This document shows, piece after piece, positions 7,119 through 16,907 of a DNA stretch of 50,021 nt. The stretch is from Spirochaetota bacterium (GTDB lineage: Bacteria; Spirochaetota; UBA4802; UBA5550): assembly GCA_003246895.1 (NCBI GenBank), contig QKCL01000054.1, positions 1 to 50,021 of the forward strand, read 5' to 3'. The position numbers and the translations under genes are program-made. The notes under the pieces were generated by a model. The model saw only the letters and a program-made list of their open reading frames with translations. It made no database searches and was not told the origin of the DNA. Numbering within the stretch: the stretch's first letter is position 1; each line of letters begins with the position of its first letter.

Positions 7119-8264
7119 TCAGCAGATACACAGAATGGACTCACAAACCGCCCCTTCATTATTTTTAAATTCAGCTTCCCCACCGAGCTGTTTTGTAAGG
7201 GCTTTAACAATGGTAAGCCCCAGTGAACAATGCTGATCAACCGACCAGTCTTCCGGATATCCAGGGCCATTATCCCTGTAGACGAATCTATAATGCAGGG
7301 GCTCCGATTCCTGTAATAAAACAGTTATCTCCGGAACCTGAGTCTGTGGAATTGCATATTTTGCTGTATTCGATATGAGTTCACATAGAATAAGAGCCAG
7401 AGAAACGGAAGCTTCTGATCCAATATTAACCTGATCAATTTCAGTATTGATCTTTAAATCAGATCCCACAATATCTTCTGCAAGAATCAATATTAACTCA
7501 TTAAGATAGTTCCCTAAATCAGAGAGCGTAGTGTCTGGGGAACTATATATTTTCTCATGAAGCAGAGACATAGCACGTATCCTTCTTTCAATATCAGCAA
7601 GAATTTCTTCCACATCGACTTCATCACAACTCCCCTTGAGTTTTATCAGACTTATGAGCATATTATAATTATTCTTAACCCTGTGATGAATTTCTCTCAG
7701 TTCAAGATCCTTGCTTGAAAGTTGCTTGTTTAATTCCTCACCAAGAAGGATATTAAGAAGGTCTGTTTCGATTATTTCTTTGAATTCTGTCATAAGATCA
7801 ACAAACAGTGAGGTAAATATATTCGCCCTGTCACTGAGCATGCAGAATGTTCCAAACAATTCACCATCTGACCACTCTATTGGAACACCGAGATAGGACT
7901 TCATCCCAAAACCGGAGTGTGGATTTTTTCTCCAAAACTCTTCAGATTCAGCATCGTGAACAATCATCCTTTTTCTGCTGCCCGCTACGGTTTCACAAAA
8001 CATGCCTATGCCGAGCCTATCACTGTCATCCTTCTTATATGGATTTCCAGAAGTTCTGCTCGCAGTAAATATTTCAAGCTCATCAGCTGTAAAATGTGTT
8101 ATAAGCCCTGCCGGCACTTGCATAATCCTGGCAACAAGATCCACGATCCTTTGCCATTTCCCTTGTATAAGTTCCGGAATTTCCGGTTTATTTGTATCCA
8201 CTGGAATAATTATTTCACTTTCTTCCCCATTTACTTTCAGATATGCATATTTTCTGCTGTTCAA
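7119..8264 (-). CDS. GAF-domain sensor histidine kinase (HisKA_2 type)
   Basis: 381 aa cytosolic sensor kinase. A GAF domain spans about residues 35-175 (AGLITHF ... YLGVPIEW ... LFGTFCML). A HisKA_2 dimerisation helix carries the phosphoacceptor in REIHHRVKNN (H193). The HATPase domain shows the N box ELISNTAKYA, the G1 box DNGPGYP and the G2 region GLTIVKALTKQLGG. The start is TTG at 8264 behind a strong GGAGGAG five bases away; no ATG fits as well. There is no transmembrane segment and no response regulator beside it, so it is an orphan kinase. The ligand of the GAF domain is unknown; position upstream of the hcp operator could be coincidence. Confidence 0.88.
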   Translation of the reverse strand: MNSRKYAYLKVNGEESEIIIPVDTNKPEIPELIQGKWQRIVDLVARIMQVPAGLITHFTADELEIFTASRTSGNPYKKDDSDRLGIGMFCETVAGSRKRMIVHDAESEEFWRKNPHSGFGMKSYLGVPIEWSDGELFGTFCMLSDRANIFTSLFVDLMTEFKEIIETDLLNILLGEELNKQLSSKDLELREIHHRVKNNYNMLISLIKLKGSCDEVDVEEILADIERRIRAMSLLHEKIYSSPDTTLSDLGNYLNELILILAEDIVGSDLKINTEIDQVNIGSEASVSLALILCELISNTAKYAIPQTQVPEITVLLQESEPLHYRFVYRDNGPGYPEDWSVDQHCSLGLTIVKALTKQLGGEAEFKNNEGAVCESILCIC

Positions 8265-9019: not shown

Positions 9020-10312
9020 ATGAAGGATTCAGAGCAATGCATAAACATCAGGGACTATCTCAACAGCCAGGAAATAATCAGGGACATCAGGGAACACCGC
9101 CTTACCCCGGAAGAAGCAAGATCCGCTTACTACCGCTGTGTAACCAAAGAGGAGTCAAAAAAAATCAGCATGCTTTCGAAGATCTCACCTGATATGGACA
9201 TGGACAAATCGATAGAAAAAAGTCTTCACGAAATAAAACAAAGGGAACAGTTCCGGCTCAAGCTTGAAATATTCAGGAGAGAATGCCTCATTTACATTGA
9301 AAAAATCATTCTGGGATGTATAAGATTTGACCGGATCTCCACCCGTGAAATTGAGGAGACAGAAACCTCAATTGAAAATATTAAAAATGACCTCCTTGGG
9401 AAATCAAAGGAATATTTCCTGATTTTCAGCAACAGTCATATGCAGGATCCGGCTTCCGCATATTATAATCTCATGAAAGACTACGCCCGAAGAGGAATTT
9501 CAGACCTGCTATGCCTCTCAACTATGCTGTATGAGAAAAAGAAAAACTGCCCTCTTACCTTTAATAAGATCGGGATGCTTGACCTTTGCAATGTATGGCT
9601 ATCAGTGATTACCGACTACAGATTGTATTATGACGAGTTTATGTCAGCCTGCCATGAAAACGAAAAATTCATAACCTCCCTGTTAAAAGGGAAAATGGGG
9701 AAAACAAGAAATACTTTTGAGAAAGATAAAATAATCAAGGAACTGATAATAAACAGGGAAAAGAACGAGCGGGAACAGATAATTGATGAACTCACTTCTC
9801 AGGCACTGCTGATGGCTTCAAAGAGGAAGCAGCTTAAAAAGCAGTTCTCTTTTATGCTGTCATACTATAACGAAAGTCTCGAGAGATACAGAGATGTTCA
9901 GCAATACCTCTTTGATAATATATGCAATAAAGGAGAATTCCACCCGAAAAGCAGCAACACACGCATGATCTTTGTTTCATTTACTGTCATACTCCATGAT
10001 TTGAAGCAGCAGCATAGCAGGCACATTGAAAAGGGCTATGCAGACTTCGGCCCTGCCGGATACTCATATATGGATATCACCTACAGACTACTGCTGACAG
10101 TAGAAGTTCTTCATTCAGTCTTTCTGCAGATGTCGAAAATTTCCATAACTCCTTCTCTATCAAAGGAATACGATATTACAGAAAAGGATACGGCAGTGCT
10201 GTTCAATGGAGAGAGGAAGAGAATTCCCATGACTTCAATCAGGGATTACTGCCGTAATAAAATAGATGAACTTACAGATGAGATACAGATTTTCAGGAGC
10301 GGGATAAGATAG
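9020..10312 (+). CDS. Large helical protein of unknown function
   Basis: 430 aa, not recognised. The composition is strongly charged and helical, with probable coiled-coil stretches around residues 60-130 (IEKSLHEIKQREQFRLKLEI) and 235-300 (runs of Lys, Glu, Gln). No signal peptide or membrane segment is seen. A cysteine-bearing segment (RRECLIYIEKIILGC) lies near residue 90. The upstream ribosome site is weak (GCAGG, seven bases from ATG). It precedes the AraC-propeller regulator by 165 bp on the same strand, so it could be a partner, but the gap leaves room for a separate promoter. Confidence 0.7.
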   Translation: MKDSEQCINIRDYLNSQEIIRDIREHRLTPEEARSAYYRCVTKEESKKISMLSKISPDMDMDKSIEKSLHEIKQREQFRLKLEIFRRECLIYIEKIILGCIRFDRISTREIEETETSIENIKNDLLGKSKEYFLIFSNSHMQDPASAYYNLMKDYARRGISDLLCLSTMLYEKKKNCPLTFNKIGMLDLCNVWLSVITDYRLYYDEFMSACHENEKFITSLLKGKMGKTRNTFEKDKIIKELIINREKNEREQIIDELTSQALLMASKRKQLKKQFSFMLSYYNESLERYRDVQQYLFDNICNKGEFHPKSSNTRMIFVSFTVILHDLKQQHSRHIEKGYADFGPAGYSYMDITYRLLLTVEVLHSVFLQMSKISITPSLSKEYDITEKDTAVLFNGERKRIPMTSIRDYCRNKIDELTDEIQIFRSGIR

Positions 10313-10477
10313 ACAGATGAAAGGAAACACAAAGTCTCATGGGTTTTCTATTACTTCTGGAACTCTGCGTGTAGAAACGAAAACTTTTACCGTTACCATT
10401 CCTATTAAAATATAGATGGTTGACATACTCTTCAAAATCAGGCTACAATGCTCCCATACTTAGAAGAGTGAACAGTC

Positions 10478-12655
10478 ATGGGAATAAATAACAGCAGAGA
10501 AAGAATAACAGAAGTTGTTAATTACATTCACGAAAATCTGGATTCATCTCTAACACTTAGAGAGCTTTCCGGGATTGCGTTTCTCTCTCCCTCTCACTTT
10601 AAAAAAATATTCAGGGAAACATCGGGAGAAAATATAAGTGATTATGTCAAGCGGGTCAGGCTCGAGAAAGCACAGTACATGCTTCTCCACAACCAGTACA
10701 GATCAATTACGGAAATTGCCATGGATACAGGGTTCTCCTCCTCTGCTTCATTTGCCCGCGCTTTCAGGCAATACTTCGGAATCAGCGCATCGGATTTCAG
10801 AAAGGACAACTCAAATGAGGCCTTTATCAATTTCGGCACCCCCTATCTGAAAAACGTTACACCCCATGAATATGACGGCTATGAATCAGTCTATGCCATA
10901 ACAGATGACGGGAATGGAACATTCTATTTCGGGTCTGATTTCGGAGAAATCTACATATACAGCAGGAATGATTTTAAAAAAATATGCATCCACGAACTGT
11001 CTCCGATATTATCCCTGTCATTTGATGAGAAAGGAACCCTCTGGGTCGGCAGTGTGGGAGATATGGGATATATAGAAACCGGTCCTGATTCTTTTGAGTT
11101 CATTTCAATAAAGGGACGCCTTCCTGACAGCGACAGGGACTTCAGCCATGTCTGGCAGATTGTTCCATCCATGGACGGTATATATTTTCAGACAAGATCA
11201 GCCATTTTCAGATGGCATAATGAAAAGTTTTCAGTGATCAGAACAGGAACATCATTTCACTCCCTGACAGCTATATACAATAAAATTTACCTTCTTGAAT
11301 TCAGACAGGGACTGATGTCCATAAAAGGGGATAAACTTCTCAGAGAACCCGGTGCAGACCAGGTCAATGCGGAACATCTTGCAGTATGCAACTTTCTGCC
11401 ATATGATTATGAAAACATTTTCTGCCTCACCCGCAACAAAGGCTGCTGGCTCTACAACGGAAAAGAGTTCAGAAAGTTTCACACAGAAATAGACCATCTT
11501 TTTGATGAAGCGGGTATACTGAGGGGGGTATTCATTCCCGGACTTGGTTATGCCATCGGTACCAGGACAATGGGTATACTGATAATAGACAATGATGGAA
11601 AACTTTTCTGTTCCATAAACTCCAGCCGCGGACTCATGGATAACTATATACGCGCAGTGCACTACACAAAGGATGAAATGCTTCTGGTTGGAATGAATTT
11701 CGGCATAGCCATGTCAAAGGCCACCCTTCCTGTAATGATATTCAGGGAAAATACCGGAATAAGAAATATGGTTGCATCAATTATAAAACACAGAGGCACA
11801 CTGTATCTGGCAACCCAGTACGGAATAGTAAAAGAAAGGCATAACCATAGGGGCGGAGAGGAACTCTTTCAGCGGATTCCCGATATAATAACACAGACCC
11901 ATGATCTCATCGAAAGCAATGAATGCCTCTGTATAGCATACGGTTTTGGTTTATATATTATAGGAGAGGACTGCTGCCAGGACTTCAATCTTGACATTCC
12001 AATCAGGTCTTTATGCCGGTCCAATGTGCACGAGGGAAAACTTTACGGAGCGTCAAACAGCTGTGTATTCTGTTTCTATTTCTATTCCGGGAAATGGAAC
12101 AAAGGTGAAACCATCGGTAAACTTGAAGGCAGCCTGTACCGTGTTGTTGAAGACTCAAAGGGAAGGATTTTCACAAACAGTTCAAACGGAATGGTATACC
12201 GTGTTTCCTTCAATTGTAAAAACTCTCCTGAAATAAAAAGCTATGGCGCAGCAGAAGGGATACCAAGAACGCCCACAAGTCTTTTCAAAATCAAGAACAA
12301 AATATACGCCGCCACACAAAATGGAGTACTCTGCTATGATGAAGAGACTGAAAAATTTACTGATGATAACTTCATGGGAGGATTTTTCAGAAACAGACTG
12401 GTCCATGAAATTGTTGAAGATGGGGAGGACATCTGGGCCATAGAAGGCAGATCACGGAATGTTTATTTCATAAAAAATACTCATGGAGTAAGTTACAATC
12501 CACCAAAACCGTTTTTAAGCAGCCCCGATCTCAGGGCAACAGCAATTTATCCGGAAGGAAACGGCATTGTCTGGATAGGATGCAGCAACAAGCTTGTACG
12601 GTGCGATGTCAGGGATCTTAAAAAAAACCGCCGCCATCAGGCAGAACAGACATGA
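10478..12655 (+). CDS. Soluble AraC-type regulator with C-terminal two-component beta-propeller
   Basis: 725 aa. Residues ~8-108 are an AraC/XylS DNA-binding domain (two helix-turn-helix motifs; LTLRELSGIAFLSPSHFKKI and ITEIAMDTGFSSSASFARAF). The rest is a beta-propeller of the two-component regulator type, with blade signatures such as GTLWVGSVGDMGYIE, LLVGMNFGIAMS, TLYLATQYGIV, IYAATQNGVL and IVWIGCSNKLV. In the known hybrid two-component proteins of Bacteroidetes the propeller is periplasmic and the AraC domain is last, after a kinase. Here the order is reversed, there is no kinase, receiver or membrane segment, so the propeller must sense in the cytosol. Targets are unknown. Confidence 0.85.
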   Translation: MGINNSRERITEVVNYIHENLDSSLTLRELSGIAFLSPSHFKKIFRETSGENISDYVKRVRLEKAQYMLLHNQYRSITEIAMDTGFSSSASFARAFRQYFGISASDFRKDNSNEAFINFGTPYLKNVTPHEYDGYESVYAITDDGNGTFYFGSDFGEIYIYSRNDFKKICIHELSPILSLSFDEKGTLWVGSVGDMGYIETGPDSFEFISIKGRLPDSDRDFSHVWQIVPSMDGIYFQTRSAIFRWHNEKFSVIRTGTSFHSLTAIYNKIYLLEFRQGLMSIKGDKLLREPGADQVNAEHLAVCNFLPYDYENIFCLTRNKGCWLYNGKEFRKFHTEIDHLFDEAGILRGVFIPGLGYAIGTRTMGILIIDNDGKLFCSINSSRGLMDNYIRAVHYTKDEMLLVGMNFGIAMSKATLPVMIFRENTGIRNMVASIIKHRGTLYLATQYGIVKERHNHRGGEELFQRIPDIITQTHDLIESNECLCIAYGFGLYIIGEDCCQDFNLDIPIRSLCRSNVHEGKLYGASNSCVFCFYFYSGKWNKGETIGKLEGSLYRVVEDSKGRIFTNSSNGMVYRVSFNCKNSPEIKSYGAAEGIPRTPTSLFKIKNKIYAATQNGVLCYDEETEKFTDDNFMGGFFRNRLVHEIVEDGEDIWAIEGRSRNVYFIKNTHGVSYNPPKPFLSSPDLRATAIYPEGNGIVWIGCSNKLVRCDVRDLKKNRRHQAEQT

Positions 12656-12712: not shown

Positions 12713-13600
12713 CTATTCAATCCCTCTCTGAATTTTAAATGCCTTCACTGTATTCCCGAGGAGCATAGTGATAGTCATTGGTCCGACCCCCCCGGGAACA
12801 GGTGTAATTGCAGAAGCCTTTTTTTCAACCTCTTCAAAAACAACATCACCAACAAGTTTTGTCTTTTCAGGATTTTCGGGATTTTCAACACGGTTAGTTC
12901 CAACGTCAATCACAACAACCCCTTCCTTGACCATATCACCGGTTATTGTACCCGGCCTTCCTGCGGCAACAACGAGAATATCAGCCTGCTTTGTATAAAC
13001 AGAAATATCAGGAGTACCGGTGTGGCATACGGTCACAGTACAGTTGGCCCTTCCATTCTTCTGGATCATCATATTTGCAATGGGTTTTCCCACAATATTG
13101 CTCCTGCCTACGACCACAACGTGTTTTCCCTTAAGGTCACTGACATGTCTTGAAATAAGTTCCTGACAGCCGTATGGAGTACAGGGCAGCAGACAGTCCT
13201 CCCCTATGACCATTTTGCCGGTATTAATTGGATGGAAACCATCAACATCCTTTACCGGATTAATGGCATTTATGACCCTGTTTTCATCAATATGCCCCGG
13301 CAGGGGAAGCTGTACAAGAATACCTGACACTTCACCGTCACTGTTCAGTTCATCCACAAGTTTTAGAAGGTCCTCTTCAGATGTATCACCGGGCAGTATA
13401 TGCTGGACGGATTTCATTCCCAGCTCCTCACAACCCTTTCCCTTCATGCGCACGTATACCGCAGAAGCAGGGTCATCTCCCACAAGCACCACATCAAGCC
13501 TGGGAACCTGGCCTGTTTTTTTCCGGAGTTCCAGAACATCATCTTTTATTTTTTCCCTGATCTCAGAGGCAATTTTTTTACCGTCAATTATCTGTGCCAT
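12713..13600 (-). CDS. folD: Bifunctional methylene-THF dehydrogenase / methenyl-THF cyclohydrolase
   Basis: 295 aa, standard length. FolD interconverts 5,10-methylene-, 5,10-methenyl- and 10-formyl-tetrahydrofolate in the cytosol with NADP. Visible family motifs are the active-site Y49 and K53 in YVRMK, VQLPLP, PCTPYGCQELI, the Rossmann GRSNIVGKP, VIDVGTN and the C-terminal PGGVGPMTITMLLGNT. GGAGGAG precedes the ATG. The start lies 17 bp inside the end of the GIY-YIG gene, so the two are coupled. Confidence 0.97.
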   Translation of the reverse strand: MAQIIDGKKIASEIREKIKDDVLELRKKTGQVPRLDVVLVGDDPASAVYVRMKGKGCEELGMKSVQHILPGDTSEEDLLKLVDELNSDGEVSGILVQLPLPGHIDENRVINAINPVKDVDGFHPINTGKMVIGEDCLLPCTPYGCQELISRHVSDLKGKHVVVVGRSNIVGKPIANMMIQKNGRANCTVTVCHTGTPDISVYTKQADILVVAAGRPGTITGDMVKEGVVVIDVGTNRVENPENPEKTKLVGDVVFEEVEKKASAITPVPGGVGPMTITMLLGNTVKAFKIQRGIE

Positions 13601-13976
13601 GATTCTCCTCCAGAATTCTGTTCTTTATCTTCGTATTCAGCTTTTCAGGATCCCCGGAACAGAAACAAACTGAATCTGCCATATCCTTTTTACCGCTATC
13701 CATAAGGCTGCTGCAAAGCAGGTCAGGACTGTCTATAAGTTCAAGTTTGCCGGATCTTGGAAGACTCTTGATAAATGCTTCGATTCTCATTGCGTCCCCC
13801 TTTCCGGAAGTAACGCGCCATATACACCTTATTTCCACGGGCCTGAATGCCTTCGTAAATCTGGCCCCGCCCTTGCCTGAAAAATGCTGATACATCCTGT
13901 TCTCTATGTCTTTACAATAACCTGTATAGAGCAAACCTCTTTCACATTCAAGAATATATACAAAATTTTCAGACAC
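13584..13976 (-). CDS. GIY-YIG nuclease-superfamily protein (UPF0213/YhbQ type)
   Basis: 130 aa. The GIY-YIG core is residues 5-85: FVYILE, LLYTGYCKDI, R27, a GARFTKAFRP segment and the later MRIEAFIKSL with the conserved glutamate. Stand-alone proteins of this type (YhbQ/UPF0213) are putative DNA nucleases of unclear role. The C-terminal 45 residues are an extra, poorly conserved tail containing CFCSGD. The gene is 6 bp downstream of the membrane synthase gene and overlaps folD, so the three probably share a transcript. Confidence 0.87.
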   Translation of the reverse strand: MSENFVYILECERGLLYTGYCKDIENRMYQHFSGKGGARFTKAFRPVEIRCIWRVTSGKGDAMRIEAFIKSLPRSGKLELIDSPDLLCSSLMDSGKKDMADSVCFCSGDPEKLNTKIKNRILEENHGTDN

Positions 13977-13982
13977 CTGCCT

Positions 13983-16703
13983 CTAGGCCTTTTTCTTTAG
14001 TATAAATAAAAGAAGCAGGGCTCCAAGGGAATAGGCTCCTATGGCGATCATGAATGTAAATGAAAAACCGAAAGTAACATTCATGTAAAGAGCCCCTGTT
14101 GTGGCAATTGTGCCGGCTGCCCCGCTTATTGCATACATTAGAGTTGCATACTCGGATGAAATATCCCTCTTGATCTGCTCCATTGCGCTGGGGAATGGTA
14201 TTCCCATCATAAAAGAAAGTGGGAACATGAGCCCCAGGGCAGCCCATGGCCTCTGGGCGAAAGTAAGTGTAGAAAAAATACGGAATATGTCATCCATAAA
14301 GTAATGGTACGAGTATATCAGAACAGGAATGAGAAAAACAGCGCAGAATACCCCTCTCCTGCCAAGCCAGGCCGATACAATACTGCCGAGTCCGCTGAAG
14401 AAAAGAAGCCCCCCAAGGGTTATTATGACCGAATAGACCGGAACTCCTATGAAACGCTGGAAAAACTGCATGAGGACAATCTCCACAAGCATGTACCCGA
14501 ATCCGACAGCAGTGAAGAAAAGGGTGTGTTTAAAAAGTGAAGCCCCGTGCGTGCCGTATCTTACCGCAGCAAGCAGGAATACCGGAATAAAGATTAAAAG
14601 AGACAATATGCCGACTATTCTCAGGACAGAGAAAACTTCTTTTTTATTTTCATATACATTGAATGGGAAGGGTTTATCATCTGTTATTGGAGAGATATCC
14701 ATTCTGTAGCTGTAGGGAGTTTTATCAAGGAGCCTGCAGTATCTTGATGTTTCCTCTTTGTTCAGTTTCCTTTTCAGCACATACCTGCCCTGCTTAAAGT
14801 TATAAACAGTGCTTACAAAATCAAATCCCCTTGTCCTGTCCAGTTTCGGATATTTGTTATACAGGGAAAGCACAAAGTCACTGTCGTTTTTATCTTTTAT
14901 ATACTTAAGAATCCTGTTTTCAAAATCATCATACCATATGTAATCGGGCAGCTGAATCTGCTCCTCATTGAATGTACCGCTTATAATATCACCGACAAAA
15001 CCGCTGATTCTCTCTCCGGGAAAGGCAAGTATTGGCTGTCTGCTTGACATAAGAGGGACCTGTTTATTGTCAATGTAGTACTTCAGGTTCTTTTCCAGTT
15101 TTGCCTTTTCGCTTGCCGTAAAGGGGATACGTTTTATGACTATTGACCTTACCGCAGGTTTAGAATAGTTCCAGTAGTCCCACTTGTATACACATATATA
15201 ATCCCATGGTTTTTCTATACCCATCTCCCTCAGGGCATGGACAACTGTATTCATAAACTTATAGAAAAACCATTCGGTCCTGTTGCTCCAGAGTATCTCC
15301 TCATATACCAGAAGCCCCCTGTCTGTAAGTTTTTCAAGCATCTCCCTAACAGCTTCGGTTGTATGGAGATATTCAGGTGCAAGTGAACATACCGCTCCAT
15401 GTTCAGCATGGTTGTTCATGTGGGTGATCATGTCAAACATCTCGGAAGTGTTTCGGAGATATGCTCTTCCCTCAACACGGTGTATTACAGTATTCTCATA
15501 AGCCCTCTGGGACTTTTCGAAAAAATACCCAGATGACATGGTCTTGTGTATGATCGGATTGAATTCAACTCCTGTTATCCTTGAGTTACCCGGAAGTTTT
15601 TTCACAGACTTGACTATGCCGTCGGCAGAAGCCCCCATTATGAATACGTTGGCGTCTTTTAGATAGTTGGGGAACCGCGCATCGTTTGTCGACCCCAGAT
15701 CTCCGAATATAACCCTGTCGTAGAATGAACCGTTATTTATATAAAGAAAATCCTTTTCCGTCTTTGTAATGTACTCAATACGTCCCATGAGGTTATCCTT
15801 TGAATAAAGGAATGAGTAATCCTCAAGCCTCTTTGTATATATCTTGAAACTCTTTTCAGCAGAAAAAGAGGGCCTGTAGTTGCAGCTTAAATCCATTACA
15901 AATGGATAAAAGTCTGTGTGATTAATCACATTCTTCGCCATTTCAAGAAGATACTCATCATCGGTCTTTGCCACATACTTGTCCGAACCTTTGTCATACC
16001 GGTAAACCTGATTCATAATCTTCTTTTCAATAGGTTTTGTAACAAGCGGGTCTATCTTTACACGGTATTCATTTCCGTTTATTGATTTTGGAATATGTAT
16101 ATTCATTATCCACATAAACAGGACAACAGCCATTGCGATCATGGTCAGTGTCTGGAGAAAAATTCTTGCCAGTGTATTTGAAACCTTCAGAAAAAAGAAC
16201 AGCATGAAGGCAAGAGGAAAGAGCATGAGAAATATCAGTGTACCCTCTGACTTGAAGTGTGATACAAAAATTACCGGAAAGAGTACTCCCATGGCGGATG
16301 CAGTGAGATCCAGAAAATAAATCTTGTGGGAGTTATGCCTGGAAAAAATGGATGATACAATGAATGACCCTGAAAAAAACGGCAGTATGAGAAACCACGG
16401 GAAGCTGAAACTGTCGAGTCTGATTATACTGAAATATGAAAGCGGAATGGAAACAGTAAATATCAGCGCCGCAACTGAAGTGAAGAAAACCCTGTAATGC
16501 CTCAGAAGATAAAAACTGAGAACCCCGCCAAGGGATATGCCGAACATGGCAACGGAAATGACCGTCGTGGCATGCATATAGTTTGATACAATCAGAAGGA
16601 GATGGAAAAGTACCGCCTCAAGCGCTATTATGCCGAATGGGAAAACCGTTACAGCAAGAACATTTAAAAACTTGTCAAGAAAGTGATTATCTCTGCAATT
16701 CAT
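13983..16703 (-). CDS. Polytopic membrane protein with spermidine-synthase-like domain
   Basis: 906 aa from the ATG at 16703 (AGG eight bases upstream); a TTG at 16718 is an alternative. The first ~210 residues contain about seven hydrophobic segments. A large soluble middle (about residues 215-690) holds a spermidine-synthase-like Rossmann region: VFIMGASADGIVKSV, then GVEFNPI, and YENTVIHRVEGRAYL followed by MFDMITHMN. A second membrane bundle follows (about 715-905, ending in the lysine-rich KKKA). Membrane spermidine/spermine synthase-like proteins of this plan are widespread and poorly characterised; aminopropyl or methyl transfer are possible, and some key polyamine-site residues cannot be confirmed by eye. 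Confidence 0.75.
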   Translation of the reverse strand: MNCRDNHFLDKFLNVLAVTVFPFGIIALEAVLFHLLLIVSNYMHATTVISVAMFGISLGGVLSFYLLRHYRVFFTSVAALIFTVSIPLSYFSIIRLDSFSFPWFLILPFFSGSFIVSSIFSRHNSHKIYFLDLTASAMGVLFPVIFVSHFKSEGTLIFLMLFPLAFMLFFFLKVSNTLARIFLQTLTMIAMAVVLFMWIMNIHIPKSINGNEYRVKIDPLVTKPIEKKIMNQVYRYDKGSDKYVAKTDDEYLLEMAKNVINHTDFYPFVMDLSCNYRPSFSAEKSFKIYTKRLEDYSFLYSKDNLMGRIEYITKTEKDFLYINNGSFYDRVIFGDLGSTNDARFPNYLKDANVFIMGASADGIVKSVKKLPGNSRITGVEFNPIIHKTMSSGYFFEKSQRAYENTVIHRVEGRAYLRNTSEMFDMITHMNNHAEHGAVCSLAPEYLHTTEAVREMLEKLTDRGLLVYEEILWSNRTEWFFYKFMNTVVHALREMGIEKPWDYICVYKWDYWNYSKPAVRSIVIKRIPFTASEKAKLEKNLKYYIDNKQVPLMSSRQPILAFPGERISGFVGDIISGTFNEEQIQLPDYIWYDDFENRILKYIKDKNDSDFVLSLYNKYPKLDRTRGFDFVSTVYNFKQGRYVLKRKLNKEETSRYCRLLDKTPYSYRMDISPITDDKPFPFNVYENKKEVFSVLRIVGILSLLIFIPVFLLAAVRYGTHGASLFKHTLFFTAVGFGYMLVEIVLMQFFQRFIGVPVYSVIITLGGLLFFSGLGSIVSAWLGRRGVFCAVFLIPVLIYSYHYFMDDIFRIFSTLTFAQRPWAALGLMFPLSFMMGIPFPSAMEQIKRDISSEYATLMYAISGAAGTIATTGALYMNVTFGFSFTFMIAIGAYSLGALLLLFILKKKA

Positions 16704-16907
16704 CAGAAAGACCTGCAATATTATTTATTTACACACAGTTCTGTCACAGATAAAACAGAAACCGTTAACTGCCGAAAATTAGTTTTACATAGCATCAATG
16801 TCATTGACATATTATTTTACGGTGGTTAAGTGGTGAGTATCAAAGTGTGTTTCCATAAATCAACATATTTTTATTATTCACAGCAGAATTAAACATAATA
16901 TTATACA

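Follow-up and report, generated by a model that had tools for sequence, protein, structure and literature searches.

The Reg_prop sensors of Bacteroidota (BT4663, BT3049, BT4673 and their hybrid two-component relatives) are built around a double seven-bladed beta-propeller, which is exported and is followed by a Y_Y_Y domain, a transmembrane (TM) helix and a kinase (or SpoIIE) domain, and any AraC-type helix-turn-helix (HTH) domain in these proteins is C-terminal. In BT4663, two seven-fold propellers are combined with Y_Y_Y and bind disaccharides at the entry faces of both, and in this family Y_Y_Y takes part in dimerisation (PMC5121618). In hybrid two-component systems, ligand sensing by the double propeller is hard to tell apart from transmembrane signalling; a soluble propeller-HTH protein would allow the ligand, the conformation and the DNA binding to be measured in one tube. 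In regulators of the Rob type, the AraC HTH is N-terminal, and the effector domain behind it is a GyrI-like C-terminal domain of ~155 residues. Btr-type AraC regulators possess an extra N-terminal region and an HTH, after which comes a siderophore-binding-protein domain, i.e. a C-terminal ligand-binding domain of extracytoplasmic type. SgrR/DsvR are soluble regulators with an N-terminal HTH and a C-terminal SBP_bac_5 solute-binding domain, a sensor from an otherwise extracytoplasmic family (PMC13060122).

Here we analyse a 725-aa protein encoded within a stretch of DNA of 50,021 nucleotides (the window), in which an AraC-type HTH is combined with a double propeller. It resembles the Bacteroidota Reg_prop sensors end to end in the sequence and fold of the propeller, but it has no export signal, Y_Y_Y, TM helix or kinase, and its HTH comes first. 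With the Rob-type regulators it shares the N-terminal position of the HTH and the nearest HTH sequences (41-52%), whereas the GyrI-like domain gives way to a 600-residue propeller. SgrR/DsvR differ in that they are not members of the AraC family and have a solute-binding protein in place of the propeller, while Btr-type regulators have another sensor fold; the NCBIfam Btr model matches the 725-aa protein only in the HTH.

Gene, domain layout and fold

The gene (10478-12655, +) starts with ATG and comprises 725 codons with no internal stops. Its frame opens only two codons ahead of the ATG (the stop-to-stop open frame has 727 codons), therefore no N-terminal extension is hidden upstream of position 10478. 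A promoter-like site (TTGACA-N18-TACAAT, 10420..10449, +; 11 of 12 consensus positions) ends 28 bp before the start codon; only its position and strength speak for it, as promoter-like sites are no more numerous in this region than expected by chance. GC content and codon usage match those of the neighbouring genes, so acquisition of this gene, if any, was not recent. Because the flanks also contain core genes, contamination of the assembly by a foreign contig is unlikely. The gene was also considered as a part of a prophage or of a defence system, but the PHROGs matches concern the HTH alone, and PADLOC gave none.

The protein consists of an AraC-type double HTH (residues ~7-112; the segment of residues 1-112 is encoded by 10478..10813, +), an 11-residue flexible linker (residues 112-122; 10811..10843, +; pLDDT <50 in the alignment-based model described below), and a propeller that extends to the C-terminal end (residues ~119-711 in sequence alignments). 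Pfam identified HTH_18 at residues 32-109 (E 1.7e-21, 76.7 bits vs a cut-off of 33.6) and HTH_AraC in two stretches at the N-terminus (E 2.6e-15, 56.6 bits vs 26.6), i.e. a domain of ~100 residues with both HTH motifs, above the curated cut-offs, as is characteristic of the AraC/XylS family. The propeller region is recognised as Reg_prop (E 5.5e-9, 35.6 bits vs 20.4). Searches of Pfam with the 725-aa sequence gave no match to kinase, receiver, GyrI or Y_Y_Y domains, no signal peptide was found, and the maximal hydropathy (KD19) of 1.38 indicates no TM helix, compared with 1.6-2.8 for the TM helices of the relatives; export signal, TM helix, Y_Y_Y, histidine kinase and receiver, which define the hybrid two-component proteins, are all absent. 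As the protein begins with an HTH and lacks a signal peptide, we infer that it is soluble and located in the cytosol. An earlier note on this DNA, made from the sequence alone, had described a soluble protein with the DNA-binding domain first and a long propeller behind it, free of kinase, receiver and TM helix, and this description holds.

A structure model from the single sequence was useless (pLDDT 34.5), whereas the AlphaFold2 model calculated from a nine-sequence alignment with relatives reached a mean pLDDT of 80.9. It exhibits seven helices in the HTH domain and 56 strands across residues 124-710 (10847..12607, +), which make up 14 blades of four strands each, the last of them probably closed by the first strand (124-127). 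Foldseek identified the periplasmic domain of BT4663 as the top match (4a2l, E 1.6e-23, TM-score 0.53), with the periplasmic domains of BT3049 and BT4673 also at the head of the ranking. The TM-score is modest, probably because the protein lacks Y_Y_Y, has an HTH in addition, and holds its two propellers at a different angle. Both the strand count in the model and the match to BT4663 identify two seven-bladed propellers, as in the Reg_prop sensors, which settles the blade number that the earlier note had proposed to check.

Origin of the two parts and their distribution

The periplasmic Reg_prop sensors match the propeller at E-values from 4e-29 to 1e-53, far beyond chance, in agreement with the earlier assignment of a propeller of the two-component type. 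The alignment with the sensors of Bacteroidota/Ignavibacteria proteins runs from end to end; loci from Microscilla, Ignavibacteriaceae, Runella and Spirosoma genomes cover the whole propeller with 18-26% identity, and a tblastn search against plasmids revealed a Runella histidine kinase that matches residues 120-711 (E 4e-29). The domain order in these relatives is signal peptide, propeller, Y_Y_Y, TM helix, and kinase or phosphatase (the succession of Y_Y_Y, TM helix and kinase or SpoIIE phosphatase was scanned in the proteins from Runella, Microscilla and Ignavibacteriaceae). The 725-aa protein terminates with the last blade, exactly where its relatives enter Y_Y_Y; a complete propeller cut precisely between blade 14 and Y_Y_Y argues for its use as a module rather than for random truncation.

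The HTH has other relatives. Its best matches within the family of the source genome are N-terminal HTHs (41-45%, E 1e-21 to 5e-25), and the two of them that were scanned (L009 and L024) both carry a GyrI-like C-terminal domain, which makes them Rob-type. The best matches from Bacteroidota are also N-terminal, in frames of ~310 residues (up to 52%), while C-terminal HTHs are more distant (26-40%). By these sequence comparisons, the HTH most likely descends from a Rob-type regulator whose effector domain was exchanged for the propeller; the protein itself retains the N-terminal HTH of this type (residues 7-112) and lacks the GyrI-like domain. A rearranged hybrid two-component protein from the source genome was rejected as the origin: the one with a C-terminal HTH (L002) is only 28% identical in this domain, and no Y_Y_Y domain was found anywhere in that genome. 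The earlier note had called the domain order reversed from that of the hybrid two-component proteins: the HTH does precede the propeller, but it is not a hybrid two-component HTH that was moved forward, and the order appears reversed only because the HTH stems from a different parent, in which it is natively N-terminal.

Neither an orthologue of the protein nor a homologue of its propeller was found in the 46 genomes of the source order, which are all genomes of the class. Among 393 genomes sampled from the phylum, the propeller gave only a weak match, to a membrane sensor kinase in one genome (G319). No HTH-propeller chimera was encountered in 395 Bacteroidota genomes or in 390 genomes from the order to which the closest propeller relative belongs; as both the phylum and this order are represented by samples, these negative results are no proof of absence. 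The two domains were not found together in plasmids or phages, and pattern scans of the genome contigs and IMG/VR revealed no second copy. Unusual propeller matches in short frames were inspected; all five (in G613, G452, L056, G915 and G1156) have a signal-peptide-like leader and none has an HTH, and a match in G023 (L083) is a separate protein, strictosidine-synthase-like by appearance. One of the five, from a Microscilla genome (L056, 1420-3252, genome G393), is a stand-alone exported propeller of 610 aa from the same family, without Y_Y_Y, TM helix and kinase, whose gene adjoins one for a full-length propeller-SpoIIE protein.

The protein thus represents a new combination of known domains, and it is so far a singleton, which limits its significance. 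It suggests that a very large propeller sensor is reusable as a module, swapped at the boundary between propeller and Y_Y_Y, and that it can presumably operate in the cytosol. Like the earlier note, which knew of no characterised regulator with this layout, we found no characterised AraC-propeller protein in the open-licence literature. The combination itself was found in no other genome, plasmid or phage among those searched, but the kind of architecture does have a precedent in SgrR/DsvR, and Btr is comparable.

Proposed function and alternative explanations

We propose, with a probability of about 0.6, that the protein is a soluble cytosolic one-component regulator, in which a monomeric HTH of the Rob type is controlled by a ligand-binding propeller. 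The DNA-binding domain would bind its operator, probably as a monomer, and the place of the GyrI-like effector domain would be taken by the double propeller from a periplasmic Reg_prop histidine kinase sensor. A cytosolic ligand (a small molecule or an oligosaccharide-like compound) could bind to the entry faces of the propellers or to the hinge and alter the seating of the propeller against the HTH via the short flexible linker, thereby switching promoter binding or activation. Direct sensing by the propeller in the cytosol, to which the earlier note had also pointed, is likely; as its identity to the relatives is only 18-26%, the ligand residues are not transferable from them. Rob and MarA are monomeric members of the AraC family (PMC11633057), hence the loss of the dimerising Y_Y_Y is no obstacle to a one-component regulator. 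Against a one-component sensor count its singleton status, the missing Y_Y_Y, the orphan gene upstream, and the lack of neighbouring transporter or catabolic genes that would point to a ligand. The chances are even that this is the first Reg_prop double propeller to act as a sensor inside the cell, where it would be linked directly to a monomeric AraC DNA-binding domain and need no phosphorylation, membrane or Y_Y_Y dimerisation module.

A rather unlikely alternative is that the propeller serves as a platform for protein docking, and that a partner sequesters or recruits the regulator, as with the C-terminal domain of Rob. Propellers commonly bind proteins, and Rob, the nearest HTH family, is controlled by sequestration-dispersal via its C-terminal domain, according to a reference cited in PMC11633057. 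The partner could perhaps be the product of the immediately preceding gene, which lies on the same strand (9020-10312, +) and encodes a 430-aa orphan. This is likewise lineage-specific: no homologue was found in the order, and Pfam, NCBIfam, PHROGs and PADLOC gave no significant match. However, the gap of 165 bp between the two genes and the promoter-like site of the regulator mean that co-transcription is not implied, and the parental propeller family senses ligands, as exemplified by BT4663.

The propeller is rich in cysteines, which constitute 16 of its 611 residues (2.6%), whereas eight exported relatives together have 23 in 4880 (0.47%; p = 6e-8, a somewhat optimistic value, as near-identical Runella sequences make up three of the eight). 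It also exceeds the average of the other proteins of the window (1.15%, p = 0.002); the excess may partly reflect the lineage. Such richness is as expected in the cytosol. Seven of the 16 cysteines (C483, C485, C499, C500, C513, C529 and C532; 11924..12073, +) are clustered within 50 residues of blades 9-10, an arrangement equalled by 0.6% of random placements (P about 0.006). This cluster (CLC, CC, C, CxxC), together with the paucity of cysteines in the exported relatives, could indicate a redox or metal sensor, in which the cysteines bind a metal or form switching disulfides, but we regard this as improbable, given that no other blade of the propeller family is as poorly conserved as blade 10 and that Pfam revealed no recognised metal-binding domain.

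We attach just as little weight to an evolutionary accident, i.e. a chance fusion in which the HTH works alone and the propeller is decaying ballast. That the protein is a singleton, lacking orthologues among the 46 genomes of the order, would fit such an event, but 611 codons without a stop or frameshift, the presence of all 14 blades and normal codon usage speak against decay, as do the divergence of blades 3-6 and 9-14 from the relatives, which is about the same as that among the relatives, and a raised cysteine content in keeping with a long stay in the cytosol. Finally, the earlier note had named a hidden TM segment or a frameshift, which would make the protein a fragment of a longer hybrid sensor, as what would refute its reading, and although Y_Y_Y, TM helix and kinase normally follow the propeller in this family, that possibility is itself refuted by the intact frame opening two codons before the ATG, the lack of a TM helix, the lack of Y_Y_Y in the genome, and the convergent folD gene on the opposite strand, which with its end 57 bp downstream leaves no room for the missing parts.

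Neighbouring genes and minor observations

On the opposite strand, the window encodes a soluble histidine kinase with GAF and HisKA_2 domains (7119-8264, -; HWE/PhyK-like), with no obvious partner adjoining, and a multi-spanning membrane protein of 911 aa (13983-16718, -) with no Pfam match, whose middle part resembles, by eye, a spermidine-synthase-type fold. A gene for a GIY-YIG protein (13584-13976, -) shares its last 17 bp with the start of folD (12713-13600, -). Two sequences deposited as bacteriophage scaffolds, MT835808.1 (L041) and MT836330.1, match the propeller regulators of Bacteroidota; the former is probably bacterial, because it also contains a TonB-receptor-like frame.
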